Of a DNA stretch of 64,000 bases, positions 11,074 to 43,620 are shown piece after piece. Every line of letters starts with the position of its first letter. Positions within the stretch are counted from its first letter, which is position 1. The notes beneath the pieces are model-generated. The model was not told the DNA's origin. It saw only the letters and a list, made by a program, of their open reading frames with translations, and searched no databases. The translations under genes and the position numbers were made by a program. This DNA is from an uncultured Roseovarius sp. (GTDB lineage Bacteria; Pseudomonadota; Alphaproteobacteria; Rhodobacterales; Rhodobacteraceae): contig OX638333.1 in NCBI GenBank assembly GCA_951812895.1, forward strand, positions 982,366 to 1,046,365, written 5' to 3'.

Positions 11074-12281
<1,208 letters not shown>

Positions 12282-25461: not shown

Positions 25462-25485
25462 GGGAATTATATACGATAGTGCCCA
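25462..25485 (+). repeat. Left terminal inverted repeat of the first IS1595-type element
   Basis: The 24 bases match 28016-28039 exactly in inverted orientation. The repeat is preceded by target duplication ATTCATTT at 25454-25461. An AGATCT hexamer, the site cut by BglII itself, begins just at its inner edge (25484-25489). Confidence 0.95.
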
Positions 25486-25491
25486 GATCTC

Positions 25492-25662
25492 TCAAGTTTC
25501 TTCGTCTTCAGGTTCTTGTCGGGTTGCACCGCCTTTCATGACTGCCTTTATCAACCTCTCCGGTTTTACCGGTACACTTATGTCCTTGTTCATATCGGCT
25601 TTTGTTGGCTGGTAACTCCGGTCCATGACCTTGTTATAGTAGTCAGACTTCTGTTTGGTCAT
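25492..25662 (-). CDS. Small YQP-motif protein, cargo of IS1595-type element
   Basis: A 56-residue frame starting at ATG 25662, which overlaps the end of the nuclease gene by 20 bp, so it is probably translationally coupled. The core SYQPTKADMNKDISV, then P-x-x-LIKAVMKGG, aligns with a 53-residue protein at the same operon position in the second element (TYQPGKKEMLEDVRI, then P-x-x-L-x-x-SVLK). Conserved positions are Y-Q-P, K, M, D, P, L, V and K. The family and function are unknown. A regulator or stabiliser of the methylase or nuclease would fit its place. It is acidic at the C-terminus (EPEDEET). Confidence 0.7.
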   Translation of the reverse strand: MTKQKSDYYNKVMDRSYQPTKADMNKDISVPVKPERLIKAVMKGGATRQEPEDEET

Positions 25663-26341
25663 CGCTTTCTCCAATGCATTCCTGCGTGATCCCGATTGCC
25701 AAGACGGGACAACCGCCATTGCGTCCTGCGTCCAATCTGTAAAGCAATTTGCCCATCCATGTTGTTGATGCTCCAAACTTCTTATACACGTATTCGCTGC
25801 CTTGGGTTCCATCCTTGTTCAAAACCTTCCCAAGACTCCGAAAGAACTCATTGTCCAGCGAGGAACCGCGTGTCAGTATAACACCAACGTCGATTGCGCC
25901 AGCATCATAGAAGGCTGAAAACGCATACAGGTCTCTATCATAAGTCTGGTCTTTGCTATTCCACTCGAAGTCAAGTGCGACTTTCCCGGAAACAAAATCA
26001 ATCCTGTGACCATCTAGAAAACCTTTTTTGACGTATTTGTGAAGAATATTTCCAATTTGCTTCGCATGTTCCAACCGGACCAGAAGATCAGCGGAAATGC
26101 GGGTTTCTATCCAGTCGGGCAACGGGAATAGCGTATCCACATATTGGGCGATTGGCCCCTTGCTGCCGCCCGGTCTCCTTATCATCTCCGTTGTGATCTC
26201 AAACGTTTCCAAAGCATCTGTCACATGTGAGAACTGATCAGGAAAACTGTTGGCCAGAATGGACGCTGCGTTCCTATAACTGTGAATTTCAAACTTCTGC
26301 CTGACGTTTTTCGAGAACAAATGTCTCTCGCCTTCTGACAT
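25643..26341 (-). CDS. BglII-like type II restriction endonuclease
   Basis: A protein of 232 residues of the BglII/BstYI-like family (PD-(D/E)xK-type fold). The expected core is at about residues 118-165: DFVSGKVALDFEWNSKD with acidic residues and Glu for metal binding, then DRDLYAFSAFYDAGAIDVGV and ILTRG. Downstream KKFGASTTWMGKLLYRLDAG matches the family C-terminus. It should cut DNA at a short palindrome unless the adjacent methylase protects it; AGATCT or a relative is the guess by family, not proven. The start ATG follows the methylase stop by two bases. Confidence 0.82.
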   Translation of the reverse strand: MSEGERHLFSKNVRQKFEIHSYRNAASILANSFPDQFSHVTDALETFEITTEMIRRPGGSKGPIAQYVDTLFPLPDWIETRISADLLVRLEHAKQIGNILHKYVKKGFLDGHRIDFVSGKVALDFEWNSKDQTYDRDLYAFSAFYDAGAIDVGVILTRGSSLDNEFFRSLGKVLNKDGTQGSEYVYKKFGASTTWMGKLLYRLDAGRNGGCPVLAIGITQECIGESDDQTEV

Positions 26342-26343
26342 GC

Positions 26344-26979
26344 CTATTCCGCCGCAACTGACGAATTGTATTTATACGTGTCCCATGTCGGCTTATAGTC
26401 ATCGCCCGCCTGGTTGCCCCAGACCGTCCAGTTTTCACGGCACCCGCGCCCGAACAATTCCAGGTATGGTCCCCAGCTGCAACTTTCGATGATATCATAC
26501 TGTTCATCCGGTTTACGGGAATGCTCCCGCTTGCGCGTCCCGAACAGATTGACCTGTCGCCGCCCGGGTTGAAGTGTGCGCGCGTTTTTTCCACGTATCC
26601 CGAACAACAGGACTTCGGTGACGTTTCGGAAGTAAAACCCAACACCCCGCCCATCAGAGCCACCATCCTTGCGGACCTTGTGCCAGATGATGTTTGACTT
26701 GTAAGCAAAGCCCCACTTGGTCATGACCTGTAATCCCTCAGGGAGCAAAGCATTTGGAACCCAAAGGTAACAATGCGCCCGATCTTCGACAAAATCTGAA
26801 ACGGGAAGAGTGCATATGTCTTCAAGCGTCATTGTCGGATATCTGGCAAGACGTTTATGTTCAGGGGCCATTTTTCCTGTCCGGTTGGCAAAGCGCCAAG
26901 GTGGATCGGCCATGATTGTTGAAAACTTTTCAGACCCGAGAAATTGAGAAAGATCATTCGCGACGCTTGAATCACTCAT
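26344..26979 (-). CDS. MT-A70-family adenine N6 methyltransferase (DNA)
   Basis: A 211-residue protein of the MT-A70/M.MunI type. The catalytic motif DPPWRFANRTG is at residues 25-35 and the family block PTMTLEDICTLPV follows, then AHCYLWVPNALLPEGL and a C-terminal ENWTVWGNQ. In bacteria such enzymes methylate adenine in DNA as partners of restriction enzymes. The ATG overlaps the transposase stop (ATGA, 26976-26979), so its expression depends on the transposase message. It should protect the host from the nuclease encoded two bases downstream. Confidence 0.88.
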   Translation of the reverse strand: MSDSSVANDLSQFLGSEKFSTIMADPPWRFANRTGKMAPEHKRLARYPTMTLEDICTLPVSDFVEDRAHCYLWVPNALLPEGLQVMTKWGFAYKSNIIWHKVRKDGGSDGRGVGFYFRNVTEVLLFGIRGKNARTLQPGRRQVNLFGTRKREHSRKPDEQYDIIESCSWGPYLELFGRGCRENWTVWGNQAGDDYKPTWDTYKYNSSVAAE

Positions 26980-27953
26980 GACCGCGCTCCGCTTGCCAAA
27001 CCGTTGTCTGCAATCAAATCAACGTAGCGAAGGCGCTTGCCCTCCATGCCAGTAACCACGCCTGACATTTGGTCGATGGTGTTTTGCGGACGGACATTGT
27101 GACGGCCTGAGAACTCATTCACATAACGGTTCAGGTGCTTGGGGCTCATTTTGTGGAACGTGCCCTTGTGAGCGCGTTTGAGCGGTGCCCAGAAGCTTTC
27201 CAGACCGTTGATGTGAGCTTGTTCCCGAACATACTCACCAACGGAATGGCGAACTGCCTCGTGCGTCCTGTTGATCCCCTTATAAGCGCTGGCATCATCT
27301 GTGTAGACGGCCGCGCACTCGGTGGTGTGGTCAATGACAAAGCCTTGCAGCGTCTTCGACGTGGTGTCCCGTACGACCTTGGCAATAACCTGATTGGTTT
27401 CCCGATCCTTCACGCCAGCGACGATGGCTTTGCCAACGCCGCCGCGCCCGGCATTCAACTTCTTGCCCTTGTGCTTATTCTTTTCGAGTCCGCCGATGTA
27501 GGTTTCGTCGGCTTCCACCGGGCCACCAAAGGGCAGTGCAACACCATCATCCTCAAGCGCTTTGCGCACCCGGTGCGCCAAATGCCAAGCGGCTTTCTGG
27601 GTAATCTCCAGATCGCGATGCAACTTCATAGACGAAACACCCTTGAGGCTGGTGGTCATGAGGTAAATCGCAATTGCCCAGACCTGATAACCGAGATTGG
27701 ACGCTTCCATGCACGTCCCAGTGCGAACTGAAAATCGCTTGCGGCATTCCTTCTCACGGCAACGGTAGGGCATGGTCTTGTGTGCCGCCCCGGACAGCAC
27801 GCTGGTCGATCCGCAATGTGGACAGTGAGGACCATCGGCCCAGCGTTCCTCGGTAAACCACTTCTCGGCGGCTTCGTCGGTGGGGAATATCTTGAACAGC
27901 TTTACGAGGCTGATACCTTCACGATAGTGCTTACCGGGTGCTTTCTGTGCCAT
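26976..27953 (-). CDS. IS1595-family transposase (ISXO2-like)
   Basis: A 325-residue transposase. The N-terminal zinc ribbon has CPHCGSTSVLSG and CREKECRKRF (residues about 44-72). The DDE part has GPVEADETYIGG (first Asp), VYTDDASAYKGI (second Asp) and ESFWAPLKRAHKGTFHKMSP (Glu; the S-x-W pattern followed by K-R-A-x-x-G is typical of the family). It lies 63 bp inside the right inverted repeat. About two thirds of the residues appear identical to the transposase at 41690-42667 by eye. It overlaps the methylase gene by four bases. Confidence 0.95.
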   Translation of the reverse strand: MAQKAPGKHYREGISLVKLFKIFPTDEAAEKWFTEERWADGPHCPHCGSTSVLSGAAHKTMPYRCREKECRKRFSVRTGTCMEASNLGYQVWAIAIYLMTTSLKGVSSMKLHRDLEITQKAAWHLAHRVRKALEDDGVALPFGGPVEADETYIGGLEKNKHKGKKLNAGRGGVGKAIVAGVKDRETNQVIAKVVRDTTSKTLQGFVIDHTTECAAVYTDDASAYKGINRTHEAVRHSVGEYVREQAHINGLESFWAPLKRAHKGTFHKMSPKHLNRYVNEFSGRHNVRPQNTIDQMSGVVTGMEGKRLRYVDLIADNGLASGARS

Positions 27954-28015
27954 GTGTATCTCCCTTGATCTTGGGCACTATTGAATCACCTATGGTCTAG
28001 GGCGTCAAGCCCTTT

Positions 28016-28039
28016 TGGGCACTATCGTATATAATTCCC
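28016..28039 (-). repeat. Right terminal inverted repeat of the first IS1595-type element
   Basis: An exact inverted copy of 25462-25485, followed by target duplication ATTCATTT (28040-28047). The transposase start lies 63 bp inside. Confidence 0.95.
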
Positions 28040-38181: not shown

Positions 38182-38205
38182 ATGACGGATCTTGCGCAAA
38201 ACTAT
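38182..38205 (+). pseudogene. Start of a TRAP small permease gene, cut off by a transposon
   Basis: GGGGGTGACGGGATT precedes ATG 38182, followed by eight codons (MTDLAQNY) running straight into the inverted repeat of the second IS1595-type element. The position after dctP, the ribosome-binding site and spacing suggest dctQ, but eight residues cannot prove it. The rest of dctQ and dctM is absent from the window. Confidence 0.5.
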
Positions 38206-38229
38206 GGGAATTATATACCAAAGTCACAT
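38206..38229 (+). repeat. Left terminal inverted repeat of the second IS1595-type element
   Basis: Begins GGGAATTATATACC and pairs with 42727-42750 with one mismatch. The tRNA-like gene starts 15 bp inside it. Confidence 0.92.
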
Positions 38230-38244
38230 ATCGATTGACAGTGC

Positions 38245-38333
38245 ATTCATAGTGCGGAATTGGTAGACGCAGCGGCCTTGTAAGCCGAAGTCCTAAGCGG
38301 GACGTGCCGGTTCGAATCCGGCTGCGGGTACGA
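38245..38333 (+). tRNA. tRNA-like gene, long variable arm, anticodon UGU
   Basis: A class II cloverleaf can be drawn. The D arm is GCGGAATTGGTAGACGC, nearly identical to tRNA-Leu. The anticodon loop is CTTGTAA, giving UGU (threonine codon ACA). The long variable arm is GTCC-TAAGC-GGAC, and the T arm GCCGG-TTCGAAT-CCGGC is perfect. The acceptor ATTCATA/TGCGGGT pairs only with three G-T pairs and one mismatch, and the end is CGA instead of CCA. A threonine anticodon on a leucine-type body is not normal. It could be a decayed or diverged tRNA, or a tRNA mimic carried by the transposon. Confidence 0.55.
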
Positions 38334-38522
38334 TGATCATTGTTTACCGAAGGGAAAGGAAATGGCTAATGCTCGGGAGCATTTAAAAATGCTGAATGAT
38401 GAATTAGAGCGCGTTCGGAGGCAAATAGCAGAGTTGAAAATCGAGGAAGCGTTGCTTGCGAAAATGCTTCGTCGTATGGGAGACGACAGCGCGAAGAAGA
38501 AGCCCACAAATCGTGCATTATA

Positions 38523-39683
38523 CCAAGCGCGAGAATTTCTGACTCTTTTAGGATTCCCAATCTGTGTTTGATCTGATTCAGTCTGGCAAAGGAGATTTGT
38601 CATGGGATCAGCAGTTCCACTTCGATGTGATTATACAGCGGTTGAGTTGCGTCGGTTGGCGCGTCGGTGCCGCGGCAATAGACAGATACGGCGGTTGCTT
38701 GCGCTGGCAGCGGTTTATGATGGGATGAACCGTACCGAAGCAGCGCGGGTTGGTGGGATGGATCGGCAGACGTTGCGCGACTGGGTTCATCAGTTCAATA
38801 CATACGGACCCGATGGTCTGACCAACGCCAAAGGGGCTGGTCGCCCTCGTTCGCTCAATGCCGAGCAAATGCTGATACTGGCTCAAATTGTCGAAACCGG
38901 GCCTAACCCACACACGGATGGCGTGGTTCGCTGGCGGTGTATTGACCTGGTTCGGGTCATCGCCGAACGGTTTGGCGTTGAATGTTCTGAGCGATCCATG
39001 TCGGATTATCTGGCCGAACTGGGCTTCTCCAATATCTCCGGTCGTCCCCGGCACCCCAAGCAGGATGCCCGTGTGATTGAGGCTTTCAAAAAAACTTCAC
39101 CGATACGCTCGCAGCACACGTAGCCGACCTGCCTGAAGGAACACCTGTCGAAATATGGTTTCAGGATGAGGCAAGGATTGGCCAAAAGAACGGTCAGGTG
39201 CGCATCTGGGCGAAACAAGGAACCCGGCCACGCCTGCCTGCCGATCAGCGCTATGACAACACCTATCTGTTCGGGGCTATCTGCCCGAAACGTGGAACGG
39301 GTGCAGCCCTCGTTCTTCCCAAAGCTAACACTGAGGCGATGCAATTGCATCTCGACGAGATCAGCAAATATGTTGCTCACAAAGCTCACGCCGTTGTTCT
39401 GATGGATCGGGCCGGATGGCACAGCACCAGCAAGTTAATCCTGCCGAAGAACCTGACAATCATCCTGCTGCCGTCAAAATCACCCGAACTCAACCCGGTT
39501 GAGAACATCTGGCAATATCTGCGTTCAAACTATCTCTCAAACCGCATCTTCAACGATTACAACGCCATCGTCGAGGCAGCCTGCGACGCATGGAACGCGC
39601 CGATCGAAAAACCCAAGACAATCAAATCAATCGGAATGAGGGAATGGGCTCATCCTTGATCGGTCAGTATTTCTCGCGCTTAG
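38523..39683 (+). mobile_element. IS630-type insertion sequence nested in the second IS1595-type element
   Basis: About 1161 bp, flanked by TA on both sides (38521-38522 and 39684-39685), the IS630 target. Inverted ends: C(C/T)AAGCGCGAGAA at 38523-38535 and its complement at 39671-39683, with further matches inward (CTGAC, AGGAT). It holds one transposase gene in two frames. Confidence 0.85.
38602..39659 (+). CDS. IS630-family transposase in two frames joined by a -1 shift
   Basis: The first frame (38602-39123, 173 residues) is the HTH part: RRLARRCRGNRQIRRLLALA and RQTLRDWVHQFNTYGPDGL. The second frame, one base back, carries the DDE domain: EIWFQDEARIGQKNG, AVVLMDRAGWHSTSKL and SPELNPVENIWQYLRSNY. 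The switch is best placed at the run of seven A at 39088-39094 (TTC-AAA-AAA-AC), where both frames match family sequence (KKNFTDTLAAHVADLPEG continues the protein). Slippage at such runs is known in insertion sequences, so the element may be active; a simple frameshift mutation is the alternative. Confidence 0.85.
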
Positions 39684-39940
39684 TATTAGGCGTCAAATCG
39701 GCTGTCCTGAATTTTGCGTTCGAAGCCAGTGGAGATGGCGTTACGACCGAAGAAATGCGCGATGCGGTTGAGCGGGCGATCCCCGAAGTCGCAAAAGACA
39801 CCGTGCGGTCAGTGCTCTCGCGATTGAAGAGCGACGGTGCTTTGGCTTTTGTAAGAGGGCGGTATTACGTGAAAGAGTTTGCGCCGCAGGAAGAAGACCG
39901 CCCTAATGTAACTCCCCTGCGTTCTGGTTAGTAACGGTCG

Positions 39941-39967
39941 GAGAGGCCGGGATTTTCCCGGCCTCTC
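39941..39967 (+). terminator. Strong hairpin after the winged-helix gene
   Basis: GAGAGGCCGGGA (39941-39952), loop TTT, TCCCGGCCTCTC (39956-39967): a perfect 12-bp stem without a T tract. It begins ten bases after the stop and ends four bases before the second tRNA-like gene. It may terminate the message or mark a processing site for the tRNA-like RNA. Confidence 0.6.
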
Positions 39968-39971
39968 CCAA

Positions 39972-40037
39972 GCGGTTAGTCTGGCATCGGACTCCAAATC
40001 TGACATGCCGAGGGTTCGATTCCCTTCGTCCGCTCCC
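39972..40037 (+). tRNA. tRNA-like sequence, anticodon CCA, lacking a D arm
   Basis: The anticodon arm TCGGA-CTCCAAA-TCTGA gives anticodon CCA (tryptophan) with the conserved T33 and A37. The T arm GAGGG-TTCGATT-CCCTT is good. The acceptor GCGGTTA/CGTCCGC pairs firmly only at the first four positions, and just eight bases (GTCTGGCA) replace the D arm. The end reads TCCC, not CCA. The total is about 66 nt. It is either a degraded tRNA-Trp-like gene or an unusual small tRNA mimic. It lies between the winged-helix gene and the convergent YQP gene. Confidence 0.45.
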
Positions 40038-40116
40038 TTTGGAAACGCAGATGCCTAAGCGGGACAGATCATTGCTTCCAACAAGCATGATGGCCTTGGA
40101 GACCCCTAAACGCACG

Positions 40117-40278
40117 TCAATTCGGTTTTCTTGCGTCATCCCGAATCAACTTGACAGGCTTGAGAACAGAATCTGCGAGTTCGTCAGGCGTTGCATCGAT
40201 TCTTACGTCTTCAAGCATTTCCTTCTTACCAGGTTGATAAGTATTTGGTCGCAGTCGGATTTCCGGTTTATCGGTCAT
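40117..40278 (-). CDS. Small YQP-motif protein, cargo of the second IS1595-type element
   Basis: A 53-residue frame, too short for usual gene calling. The ATG overlaps the stop of the methylase-HNH gene (ATGA, 40275-40278), a strong sign of translational coupling. The core TYQPGKKEMLEDVRIDATPD, then ELADSVLKPV, aligns with SYQPTKADMNKDISVPVKPE, then RLIKAVMKGG, in the 56-residue protein that ends the cargo operon of the first element. Conservation of both position and sequence, with different nuclease partners, shows that it is a real gene. The function is unknown. Confidence 0.72.
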   Translation of the reverse strand: MTDKPEIRLRPNTYQPGKKEMLEDVRIDATPDELADSVLKPVKLIRDDARKPN

Positions 40279-41693
40279 TGCGTTGCTCTCCATTCGGCCA
40301 TGGTGCGTCCACCCTTGCTTCGATTGCAGCCAGAGCAGAGCAGTTGCAGGTTATCGGGATGGTCCGTGCCGCCTTTTACACGCGGAAGAATGTGATCAAC
40401 TTCCATGACGCGGAACGGGAAGTGTGTTTTGCATCCGACGCAGACCCCTTCCTGTTCCCCGTAGAGCCTATGCCGATGGGTCCGGTAGTTGGGAAGTTCG
40501 CCAAGATCGGTGCGTTTCGGCGGCTCCGTCAAAGCCGTTGCACCGCCCCACAGACCGCGTTCCTCAGCAATTCGCTCATCCACCAGTTTGATGGCAAGCG
40601 GGGAGAGGTCAATCCCCGCCCATTGGCGCTGCAACCGGTCGGCGGCAACCAGCGTAGTTGCGCAACCGCAGAATGGATCGAGCACCAGATCGCCTTCGTC
40701 TGAACTGGCCTTGATGATCCGTTGCAGCAAAGCCAGCGGCTTCTGTGTGGGATAGCCCGTGCGTTCGCGGGCTTGAGAATTGACCGGCGGGATATCGACC
40801 CAAACATCGGGAGGCACCTGACCGGGGTTTGCTTCGAGATATCGCTTCAGGCGGGGCGTACCCTTTGATGTAAACAGGATCAGCCCCGCCTCGTGAAGCA
40901 AGTCCAGCCGCTTCAGAATACCGTCTTCCTTCAGATACCCGTGGATGAGACTACCATCAATCCAGCGGGCGTAATCACCGGTGCGCGGTACACTCCAGTG
41001 CCGCCCGATATCGGTTGGGTTCCAGCCCTGCCACGCGGTTCCGGCCTCGCCGTCGCTGACGCCAGGACCGGTGAGGTCGTCGCTGCTATATGCTCCTCTT
41101 TCGTCACTGTGGCGGTACTTTGAAGCGACATTCTGATCGCTGAGCGGTATCCGCACGGCGTTTCGGTGAATGTCCTGCCCGTAAAACAGAAGATGGTCCG
41201 CCGTTCGCCCGAAACGCCCACCATCGTTGTGATTGCCAATCCGTTTCCAGATCAGGTGATTACGAAACGCACTTTTGCTGAATAGCCCATCCATAAGCAC
41301 ACGCAGCCAATGCGCAGCAGTATCGTCACAATGCAGATAAACGCTGCCAGTGGGCTTCAACACCCGCCGCATTTCCAGAAGCCGCACGGCCATGAAGATC
41401 AGGTAGGATTGCATCGATTTGCCTTGGGCCTGACGCGCCGCCTCAATGACAGCGTAGGCTGCCGGGTTGCGGTCAGCCATCTCGCCGTGTTCGTACACAT
41501 CAACGTCATCCAGTGTCCATGTATCCTTGAACGCAGCGCCGGCCGCTTTTGAGCCTATCGGGGCCTCATAGGTACGGTTGGAGTTGAACGGCGGATCAAG
41601 GTAGATCAGGTCCACGCAGGCGTCGTTCATGCCGCGCAGGACGGCCAGATTGTCGCCGGTCCAGATTGTGCCGCTGGCGAAGTTCGCAGTCAT
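40275..41693 (-). CDS. Beta-class DNA methyltransferase fused to an HNH nuclease domain
   Basis: A protein of 472 residues. The catalytic motif VDLIYLDPPFNSNRTY comes first (about residue 30) and the AdoMet motif DLVLDPFCGCATTLVAADRL near residue 335, the beta-class order used by N6-adenine or N4-cytosine methylases. Residues about 415-465 form an HNH domain: CVGCKTHFPFRVMEVDHILP, then GGTDHPDNLQLLCSGCNRSK, with the two zinc CxxC pairs and the DH-N-N pattern. It may be a one-protein restriction-modification enzyme, or a methylase whose HNH acts in DNA mobility. The start overlaps the transposase stop (ATGA, 41690-41693). Confidence 0.88.
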   Translation of the reverse strand: MTANFASGTIWTGDNLAVLRGMNDACVDLIYLDPPFNSNRTYEAPIGSKAAGAAFKDTWTLDDVDVYEHGEMADRNPAAYAVIEAARQAQGKSMQSYLIFMAVRLLEMRRVLKPTGSVYLHCDDTAAHWLRVLMDGLFSKSAFRNHLIWKRIGNHNDGGRFGRTADHLLFYGQDIHRNAVRIPLSDQNVASKYRHSDERGAYSSDDLTGPGVSDGEAGTAWQGWNPTDIGRHWSVPRTGDYARWIDGSLIHGYLKEDGILKRLDLLHEAGLILFTSKGTPRLKRYLEANPGQVPPDVWVDIPPVNSQARERTGYPTQKPLALLQRIIKASSDEGDLVLDPFCGCATTLVAADRLQRQWAGIDLSPLAIKLVDERIAEERGLWGGATALTEPPKRTDLGELPNYRTHRHRLYGEQEGVCVGCKTHFPFRVMEVDHILPRVKGGTDHPDNLQLLCSGCNRSKGGRTMAEWRATQ

Positions 41694-42667
41694 GTCGCTG
41701 GTTTCGCGCCGCTGGCTAATCCTGTATGCGCAATTAAGTCGCTATACCGAAGACGCTTGCCAACCATACCCGCAGCCATTCGGCCCATCTGGTCAGCGGT
41801 ATCTTTGGACCGGATGTTGTGACGCCCGGAGAATTCAATCACATAGCGGTCAAGGTGCTTTGGTGACATCTTGTGGTACACACCATCATGACCACGTTTC
41901 AGACCGGACCAGAAACTTTCCATGCCGTTGGTGTGCGCCATGTCGCGGACATATTCGCCCACCGAATGCTTGACCGCCTCGTGCGGTCTGTCGATCCCTT
42001 TGTAGGCGCTGGCTTCGTCCGTGTAGACTTGTGCCCCTTCGGCGGTGTGATCGGTGACAAAGCCTTGAAGCGTTTCTGCGTCCGTCTTATGGACAACCTT
42101 GGCGACAACATGGTTAGTCTCGCGGTCTTTTGTTCCGGCCACAGCAGTTTTCCCTACAGCGCCACGACCCGCTTTTAGCTTCTTCTTGTTGTGCTTGTTC
42201 TTTTCCTTGCCGCCTATGTAGGTTTCATCGGCCTCAACAGGGCCGTTGAACAAAGGCTTTCCCGCCCTGTGCGCTTCTCTAAGGCGATGGGCCAAGTGCC
42301 AAGCGCTTTTCTGGGTGATCTCAAGGTCGCGATGCAGCTTCATGCTGGACACACCCTTGAGATTGGTTGTCACAAGGTAGATGGCGATTGCCCAAGTCTG
42401 ATAGCCAAGTTTCGTCCCTTGCATCACATTGCCCGTTTTGAGGCTGAACATCGGGCGGTCAGGGCAATCACGGCAGCGATGGGTCATCGTCTTGTGCTTG
42501 ATGTTTGATTGCACTTCAAAAGACCCGCAATGGGGACAATAGGGGCCGTCCGGCCATATTTTGCCCGCAAACCACTTTTTGGCAGCTGCGTCATCTGGGA
42601 ACATGCGAAGAAGTTGGATCAGGCTTATGCCTTCACGATCTGACTTGCCGGGTGCCTTATGCGCCAT
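41690..42667 (-). CDS. IS1595-family transposase, second copy
   Basis: A 325-residue protein, the same length as and closely similar to the transposase at 26976. The zinc ribbon is CPHCGSFEVQSN and HRCRDCPDRP. The DDE residues lie in GPVEADETYIGGKEKNKH, VYTDEASAYKGIDRPHEAVK and ESFWSGLKRGHDGVYHKMSP. It looks intact and may act on both elements, since the outer 13 bp of the ends agree. Confidence 0.95.
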   Translation of the reverse strand: MAHKAPGKSDREGISLIQLLRMFPDDAAAKKWFAGKIWPDGPYCPHCGSFEVQSNIKHKTMTHRCRDCPDRPMFSLKTGNVMQGTKLGYQTWAIAIYLVTTNLKGVSSMKLHRDLEITQKSAWHLAHRLREAHRAGKPLFNGPVEADETYIGGKEKNKHNKKKLKAGRGAVGKTAVAGTKDRETNHVVAKVVHKTDAETLQGFVTDHTAEGAQVYTDEASAYKGIDRPHEAVKHSVGEYVRDMAHTNGMESFWSGLKRGHDGVYHKMSPKHLDRYVIEFSGRHNIRSKDTADQMGRMAAGMVGKRLRYSDLIAHTGLASGAKPAT

Positions 42668-42726
42668 ATCTTGCCCTCCGTTGTGACTTTAATATAAACC
42701 ACCTTCGCAGTCAGGGCAAGCTTAAA

Positions 42727-42750
42727 ATGTGACTTTAGTATATAATTCCC
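42727..42750 (-). repeat. Right terminal inverted repeat of the second IS1595-type element
   Basis: The inverted partner of 38206-38229. It interrupts the 3' part of the ornithine cyclodeaminase-like gene read on the reverse strand. The transposase start lies 59 bp inside. Confidence 0.92.
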
Positions 42751-43620
42751 AAAAATAAAGGCGCTACGGTCGGTGGGCGTGCGCGAGCCTTTGATCTCGC
42801 CCAATATCAATTGTGAAAGATCTCCGTGGATCAGGGCTGAATCGCAAAGTTTGTTGGGCAAAGCAGCTTCCTGTTCCAGATCATCAATGATCACCCTGTC
42901 CAATGTGCCAAAACTTTCCCGCTTCCAAGGGGCGCCAAGGTCAACGATTGCGGCAAACGCCTGGGGTTTCATACCGGACGCATCCAGAAACGGTAGGGCC
43001 TCACCGGTATGCGTCACGGTCGTTACCAACAGGTCGCAATTCTCCACAACTTCTTGACCGTTCCTGCAGGGAGCAGAGGTCATGCCGTGTTGTGACGCCA
43101 GATCTGCAAGCTTGTCCTGGTTGACCTGCCCGCGTCCGAAATAGACCGCGTGTTTCAACGGAAAGATGTCGGAAAACGCGTTCAGATGGCTTTGTGCCTG
43201 AACCCCGCAACCCACAAAGCCAATCGTTTCGGCCTCGGGGTTTGCCATCTGCTTGGCGGCGGTCGCGCTGAGCGCAGCCGTGCGGACGGCGGTGATCCAA
43301 TTGCCGTCCATCACGGCGACAGGCAGTCCTGTCATACTGTCCAGCAAGGTCACAAGACCGTTTATCTGGGGGAGGCCCCTGGCCGTATTGTCGGGGTTCA
43401 GCACCACAGTCTTAACCGCCAAAAGCGACGGATCATCCATCGCCGCCAGGGCTGCCATCATGTACCGCTGATCATCCGGCGGGGTGAGAACCGCCTTGGG
43501 TGCGGCCCACGCCGTGCCCTCCTTGCTTGCGCGAACAACCTTCTCGATCCATTCGACGATCTCGTTCGTATCGAGGTCCAGCGCCTCAAGATCAACCTGC
43601 GACAAATAGGGTATGTTCAT
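42751..43620 (-). pseudogene. Ornithine cyclodeaminase/mu-crystallin family gene, 3' end lost to a transposon
   Basis: 290 residues remain, followed by a run of transposon-derived codons to a stop at 42625. Family blocks are PDDQRYMMAALAAMDDPSLL, GLPVAVMDGNWITAVRTAALSA, ETIGFVGCGVQAQSHLNAF (NAD site) and VDLGAPWKRESFGTLDRVII. The expected C-terminal helix after RTPTDRSAFIF is missing. Family enzymes turn ornithine into proline or reduce related imines and keto acids. It was the last gene of an operon with the binding protein, RidA and ureohydrolase genes. The remaining protein may be unstable. Confidence 0.88.

Follow-up and report, generated by a model that had tools for sequence, protein, structure and literature searches.

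A recently active IS1595-family element of Roseovarius that looks like a vehicle for spreading and exchanging bacterial immunity

Introduction

Two transposable elements of one family that carry different DNA-modifying enzymes raise the question of whether a constant frame can exchange the module it transports. Such a pair, elements A and B, lies in a stretch of 64,000 nucleotides (the window, positions 982366-1046365 of the one-contig, 4.54-Mb genome of an uncultured Roseovarius sp.), for which an original prediction had proposed a cassette system with a fixed transposase, a fixed small protein named YQP and a variable enzyme between them. The analysis of A, B and their relatives indicates that B is probably a single-unit IS1595-family transposon with a restriction-modification passenger, belonging to a clade that carries exchangeable, mostly anti-phage modules.

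Element B and its sister element A

Element B (38206-42750, 4545 bp) is a single transposable unit composed of inverted ends, a transposase, a methylase-HNH gene and a YQP gene. The inverted repeat extends over 25 nt with 96% identity (38205-38229 and 42727-42751), 24 nt being inside the unit and one base per side outside. The far-end repeat (38206..38229, plus strand) forms the same element edge in all four copies of B present in the genome, and the transposase-end repeat occupies 42727..42750 on the minus strand. The transposase of 325 amino acids (41690..42667, minus strand), likewise present in four copies, matches DDE_Tnp_IS1595 (6.6e-39) and the zinc ribbon Zn_ribbon_IS1595 (1.8e-8) in Pfam and transpos_IS1595 (NF033547, 1.3e-51) in NCBIfam, above the curated cut-offs of both. 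Its stop codon is overlapped, in the sequence ATGA, by the start of a beta-class DNA methylase fused to an HNH nuclease (472 amino acids, 40275..41693, minus strand), in which Pfam recognises N6_N4_Mtase at residues 27-369 (2.8e-38) and HNH at residues 418-461 (4.6e-12). Solved relatives of the fusion are methylases, such as MboIIA, RsrI, CcrM and EcoP15I Mod, together with HNH proteins, and the DPPF and HNH regions, as we take these motifs to be, are conserved in the alignment. The YQP protein (53 amino acids, MTDKPE..., 40117..40278, minus strand) is matched at 1.8e-22 by a profile of which its own sequence forms a row. With 4545 bp and at least two passenger genes B is no plain insertion sequence (IS), and these genes make it a passenger-bearing transposon of the IS1595 family. 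A composite transposon, with a pair of IS flanking the cargo, was ruled out since each unit has one IS1595 transposase.

The sister element A (25462..28039, minus strand, 2578 bp) is flanked by the 8-bp duplication ATTCATTT. Its genes, all on the minus strand, encode a transposase (26976-27953) with the same two Pfam matches as that of B, an MT-A70 methylase (26344-26979; 5.9e-29), a BglII-type endonuclease (25643-26341; Endonuc-BglII, 5.4e-38) and a YQP protein (25492-25662). The sequence GGGAATTATATAC has four sites in the window, which are precisely the ends of A and B; at a tolerance of up to 2 mismatches, shuffled sequences had a mean of 0.46 sites, and 0 of 100 shuffles reached four.

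Several statements of the original prediction were borne out by these data: the assignment of B to the IS1595 type, by the family matches, the inverted ends and an 8-bp duplication around the copy in locus L014; the common sequence at all four ends; the ATGA overlap between transposase and next gene in both elements; and the contrast between the methylase-HNH fusion of B and the separate MT-A70 and BglII genes of A. Others needed adjustment. Both transposases have 325 amino acids, as had been said, and at 68% identity 'very similar' was somewhat strong. YQP is the last gene of the B operon without being the last feature of the element, the match stopping 1923 bp before the far end, against 42 bp in A.

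Copies and mobility in the source genome

A transposase search of the genome detected four B-type copies, six A-type copies and one distant copy (L011, 34% identity). Over the full 4545 bp three of the B copies are identical and one differs by a single base, while 2561 of the 2578 bp of A are identical across all six copies. Perfect 8-bp duplications surround the A copies of the window (ATTCATTT on both sides) and of L017 (CAATTTTG), and the B copy of L014 (AAATGTTT on both sides). In the window, B has by itself no duplication, its two flanking 8-mers being unlike and shared with two other B copies. These three copies (window 38206-42750, L012 2863-7407 and L013 2912-7456) form a cycle: the left 8-mer of the window copy is the right one of L013 (AAAACTAT), the right 8-mer of the window copy is the left one of L012 (AAAAATAA), and the right 8-mer of L012 is the left one of L013 (TAATATTG). 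When the left flank of L012 and the right flank of the window copy are joined over one shared 8-mer, an open ornithine-cyclodeaminase-like frame is restored. The simplest reading is that two large chromosome segments would have changed places through recombination between B copies. The ends, the duplications and the copies all support transposition by the IS1595 transposase.

Four A copies (L015, L016, L018 and L019) have common flanks and a rearranged far end, and are found within a longer four-copy repeat that also holds an open reading frame (ORF) matching Arm-DNA-bind_3, an integrase N-terminus.

Cargo of the transposase relatives

Relatives were gathered by the transposase alone and not by cargo, giving 65 loci: 17 from genome contigs, 20 of the 25 listed places outside the source genome in 295 genomes of the family, 27 of the 33 such places in 385 genomes of the class, and one viral contig. 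Paired ends and 8-bp duplications were sought by script, and 42 loci could be delimited at both ends, the ends of L062 being doubtful. The delimited relatives have transposase identities of about 47 to 85% and unit lengths of 1.7 to 5.5 kb; with A and B they make up a cargo table of 44 units.

A DNA methylase is encoded in 26 of the 44 units, and 24 of these also have a match to a recognised nuclease or restriction enzyme, about twelve kinds being represented. The HNH nuclease is fused to the methylase in nine units (B, L023, L032, L067, L070, L109, L110, L111 and L124) and separate in L116. The other partners are of the BglII (A, L074, L122), EcoRI (L029), NotI (L035, L126), NgoFVII (L021), XcyI (L120) and Mrr-like (L027) kinds, a fused T5orf172/GIY-YIG domain (L069, and L068 by similarity), a separate GIY-YIG gene (L129), a match to a type II restriction-enzyme profile (L030) and a match to a type IIG profile accompanied by a specificity subunit (L130). 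The methylase of L024, and by 99% identity that of L025, has a 277-residue partner without recognised family. Three further units carry defence genes, namely BstA in L076 (2.2e-119) and L080 (6.9e-110) and a PDC-S42 match in L081 (5.5e-15). The remaining 15 hold P63C proteins (L077, L079, and L078 by similarity), GIY-YIG alone (L133), an EamA transporter (L114), a lipoprotein (L064, L066), tRNA genes only besides the transposase (L128) or no recognised cargo (L028, L062, L063, L117, L118, L121, L132). The expectation that different methylases and nucleases would occupy one slot is thereby confirmed, that of a slot exclusive to modification is not, and from the gene content it is more aptly called a passenger slot with a bias towards defence than a slot for modification.

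A family of proteins of about 133-146 residues is encoded right behind the transposase in L110 (6360-6785, minus strand), L124 (2080-2505, plus), L028 (4476-4916, plus) and L118 (1977-2378, plus), with or without a methylase downstream; none of the four has a Pfam match, and the L110 and L028 proteins have no PHROGs match.

Exchange of modules and of a methylase domain

Comparison of pairs of units points to the exchange of entire modules. The transposases of A and B are 68% identical and their cargo is unrelated, whereas A and L074 share only 50% in the transposase and 71% in MT-A70. Similarly, B and L067 share 56% in the transposase and 69% in the methylase-HNH protein, whose gene is inverted in L067. 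At the DNA level, L124 and L129 align at the transposase end (75%) and over the far 180 bp (71%), and nothing aligns between, where L124 has a methylase-HNH gene and L129 a C5 methylase with GIY-YIG; L035 and L063 align at both ends (68% each) around unrelated middles. On a transposase tree, the 13 module states of the 24 labelled elements imply 13 changes, compared with 14-16 in 100 label shuffles. Judged from these sequences, module replacement is frequent, with some inheritance.

A finer exchange appears within the methylase gene. In 30-residue windows, the methylases of B and L109 are 90-100% identical outside residues about 121-330 and only 37-57% identical in windows of residues 121-300, with 70% at 301-330; in their DNA the middle gives no alignment and both flanks align at 85-87%. 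The stretch replaced between B and L109 comprises about residues 126-309 (40767..41318, minus strand). The methylases of L110 and L111, which belong to one genome, are 97-100% identical outside the middle (83% in one border window) and 23-30% identical inside it; the far ends of these two units are 98.8% identical over 565 bp, and they differ by a gene of 141 amino acids. The replaced stretch of the B methylase presumably corresponds to the target recognition domain of beta-class methylases, so that what is exchanged is probably the domain that determines specificity.

The YQP protein

All 10 YQP matches in the source genome are inside the 10 A and B units, and in 14 of the surveyed units the match ends 35-99 bp short of the far end. 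YQP is kept beside unrelated cargo (A, B, L029) and also where no methylase is present (L114, L117, L118); hence, it tracks the frame and not the cargo. No family was found for the YQP proteins scanned against Pfam, PHROGs and NCBIfam. Our guess is that YQP might regulate the transposase or the module.

The methylase-HNH gene outside the frame and distant IS1595 elements

The methylase-HNH protein has matches at 1e-60 or better in 14 of the 295 family genomes, with several copies in the genome G167. Eleven loci with the gene were examined, some of them cut by contig ends; nine have no IS1595-like transposase and none has a YQP match, which rules out a gene private to the element. Element-free genes (L224-L227, L231-L234), several per genome in G167 and G195, have conserved ends and divergent middles, and some are located between housekeeping-like genes. 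Phage and plasmid collections contained only methylases under 60% identity. In the window itself, another methylase-like stretch (11214-11954) has 40% identity to the B methylase over 67 residues.

Eight plasmid IS1595 loci (34-48% identity) and the 34% copy L011 of the source genome served as controls. Credible ends were obtained in five (L011, L138, L139, L140 and L141, the last without duplication). The annotated features of the plasmid controls include no methylase, and in L139 and L140 there are PIN/VapC gene pairs, a similar pair being the second cargo of L109.

Further features of B and a conserved RNA

The 1.9 kb of B that follow YQP hold, in this order, a stretch resembling a degenerate tRNA, an ORF with an insertion nested in it, a tRNA-like gene and the far repeat. 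The degenerate stretch (39971..40034, plus strand) reaches 26 bits with the Rfam tRNA-Sec model, below its gathering score of 47. The nested insertion (38515..39691, plus strand) has transposase ORFs of 173 and 153 amino acids and imperfect 40-nt end repeats (75%); we take it to be IS630-like. It is present in all four B copies and was therefore inserted before B spread. The split ORF (38362..39931, plus strand), a reading frame only, is left in pieces at 38362-about 38520 and about 39690-39931. The tRNA-like gene (38245..38331, plus strand, 87 nt) has the anticodon TGT (Thr) and a long variable arm, as given by ARAGORN, scores 36 bits with the Rfam tRNA model (gathering 29) and has no further copy in the genome beyond the four B copies. 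tRNA genes also occur inside the units L063 (Gly) and L128 (Ala, Ser).

A structured RNA of about 140 nt is conserved in L062 (3526-3665, plus strand), L064 (8820-8952, minus), L066 (9781-9916, minus) and 13 further loci. No Rfam model matches it at gathering. Its outer helix shows compensatory changes in 7 of 8 pairs, and a crossing helix (GCCGGGYCG/CGGCCCGGC) is 99% paired; the covariation score was reached by 0 of 500 shuffles. A second helix, 72.5% paired and without double changes, is weak. Of 12 element-bearing genomes chosen, 11 contain the RNA, as do 6 of 190 class genomes, four of the six with the transposase; it was not found in the genome of the window. It is often placed 20-50 nt upstream of an ORF, many of these with signal-peptide-like starts, and looks like a leader RNA. 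An integron attC site was also considered and rejected, the core boxes, as we take them to be, not being seen in the alignment. A search for short transposase-less units around the RNA gave none in 30 loci of at most 3.1 kb, a length too short even where an element is known.

Discussion

The mechanism that we propose for B starts with its IS1595 transposase, which, on the sequence evidence, moves the stretch between the inverted ends and duplicates 8 bp of the target. The passenger, judged by its domains, would be a restriction-modification enzyme encoded by one gene, and the ATGA overlap suggests that this gene is transcribed together with the transposase. The methylase half of the enzyme would mark the site set by the middle domain and its HNH half would cut unmarked DNA. 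In the clade, the ends, the transposase and often a terminal YQP microprotein would constitute the fixed frame, and exchange would occur at two levels: whole modules from the transposase to the far end, and the methylase middle domain within one gene. Both levels are seen as sequence patterns, and recombination between copies is their likely route. The gain to the element would probably be double: the host would be shielded from phages and other DNA, and addiction would come in addition, a cell that loses the element also losing the methylase. Defence and addiction are suggested by the established behaviour of type II systems and by the presence of BstA in the same slot.

A number of observations weigh against this reading or restrict it. 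The 23 of the 65 loci that were dropped had no transposase match, reached a contig end or had no second end. Perfect 8-bp duplications are present in 33 of the 42 delimited relatives, a count that is no independent test because duplications contributed to the scoring of the ends. Co-transcription is not a general rule, the methylase of L067-L070 running against the direction of the transposase; ATGA overlaps occur in 10 of the 44 units. The modules are slightly more clustered on the transposase tree than shuffled labels, hence the pattern is in part one of inheritance; the tree was a quick one, with 18 of its 60 inner branches open. YQP is matched in 24 of the 44 units, in 19 below 1e-6 and in five weakly (3e-5 to 9e-3), by a profile that took 12 of its 13 rows from the surveyed units, and the profile search gave no match in the other 20. 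These 20, together with the 15 units that have no recognised restriction-modification or listed defence gene, contradict the strict form of the original prediction, in which modification and YQP would always be present. The methylase-HNH gene is found alone, also with replaced middles, which assigns domain exchange to the gene family and not to the transposon. The swapped 8-mers of the three B copies could be a misassembly over the 4.5-kb repeats. The AlphaFold prediction of the methylase-HNH protein was poor (mean pLDDT 64.9) and was not used. Of the initial concept of a fixed frame with a variable cassette, most survives, with a slot that is open to other cargo, a YQP that is not universal and a methylase-HNH gene that also exists outside the element.

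Ordinary passenger capture is an alternative explanation of the same units: IS1595 elements would take up nearby genes, restriction-modification genes being enriched through their own mobility, with no cassette system and with YQP as a mere passenger. The non-defence cargo of the slot (EamA in L114, lipoproteins in L064 and L066, tRNAs in L128 and the unrecognised genes), the distant plasmid elements L139 and L140 with PIN/VapC pairs and no annotated methylase, the element-free methylase-HNH genes and the inverted methylases of L067-L070 are all in line with such capture. It accounts less well for the strong bias of 26 methylase and 3 other defence units among 44, in a slot sampled by transposase only, and for the retention of YQP across unrelated cargo (A, B, L029, L114, L117, L118), with a match ending 35-99 bp from the far end in 14 units, and we hold it to be a serious but less probable account. 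Comparable weight, still below an even chance, is given to the proposal that selfish addiction is the main function of the modules, which would prevent loss of the transposon, phage defence being incidental. Cells that lose a type II system can be killed by it, and PIN-domain pairs are found as second cargo in L109 and in the distant relatives L139 and L140; on the other hand, to our knowledge BstA and PDC-S42-like genes are not addiction modules, and not all single-chain or type IIG enzymes kill after loss.

It is very improbable, in our judgement, that the methylase serves the transposon by marking ends or targets and timing or regulating transposition, with the nuclease making or widening target breaks. 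Methylation does control some transposons, as Dam does IS10, and the overlap of transposase and methylase genes would suit such a role, but the nucleases come from classical restriction families (BglII, EcoRI, NotI, NgoFVII, XcyI), the methylases are mutually unrelated and BstA occupies the same slot. A stronger version of the preferred reading, that of a restriction-modification passenger in a clade with exchangeable modules, is also conceivable. In it the clade would be a dedicated mobile immunity platform, with a frame made for taking in, launching and retaining short defence modules of any kind, with YQP as frame-level control that would let a new module settle safely or tune transposition, and with immunity renewed by swaps of modules and specificity domains. 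We consider this version doubtful.

As for known systems, Siguier, Gagnevin and Chandler reportedly described in 2009 IS1595-family members with passenger genes (tIS), which would resemble the clade in their zinc-ribbon DDE transposase, inverted ends, 8-bp duplications and genes between transposase and far end. Replacement of the target recognition domain within near-identical restriction enzymes is known as domain movement; unlike in those examples, the enzyme affected here is a single chain of methylase and HNH nuclease, whose gene is carried by a transposon and also exists in free copies. Typical members of the IS1595 family are short, the ISPna2 group being given as 700-1287 nt in the part of a Ralstonia survey concerned with it (PMC7371123), whereas the units of this clade measure 1.7-5.5 kb, exchange modules that are biased towards defence and feature a conserved YQP protein in terminal position. 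Tn7-like transposons carry diverse defence systems, restriction-modification being the commonest in the section consulted of Benler et al. (2021, PMC8649781), and thus also combine a transposon frame with diverse defence cargo, but B and its relatives have one transposase, 24-bp ends and, as a rule, a single module. Among the ORFs of the B unit no Tns proteins were seen, although no profile search aimed at Tns was made. Restriction-modification genes moved by separate flanking IS copies are described in an excerpt of PMC3031569; here too insertion sequences would move them, with the module inside the element's own ends. The literature searched contained no report of restriction-modification or BstA passengers exchanged in an IS1595 frame, which is no proof of absence. 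Passengers of IS1595 elements (reportedly), IS-linked restriction-modification genes and the defence cargo of Tn7-like transposons were already known, and the new part is the defence-cassette behaviour.

Element B is a recently active jumping element that looks like a vehicle spreading and exchanging bacterial immunity. If this is true, a small vehicle with a single transposase would carry restriction-modification and other anti-phage modules within and between genomes, and would offer direct sequence evidence for the exchange of modules and of specificity domains. Attention would also be drawn to an uncharacterised microprotein that persists beside unrelated cargos, and the assembly of defence islands and the differences in restriction specificity between close strains would become testable.

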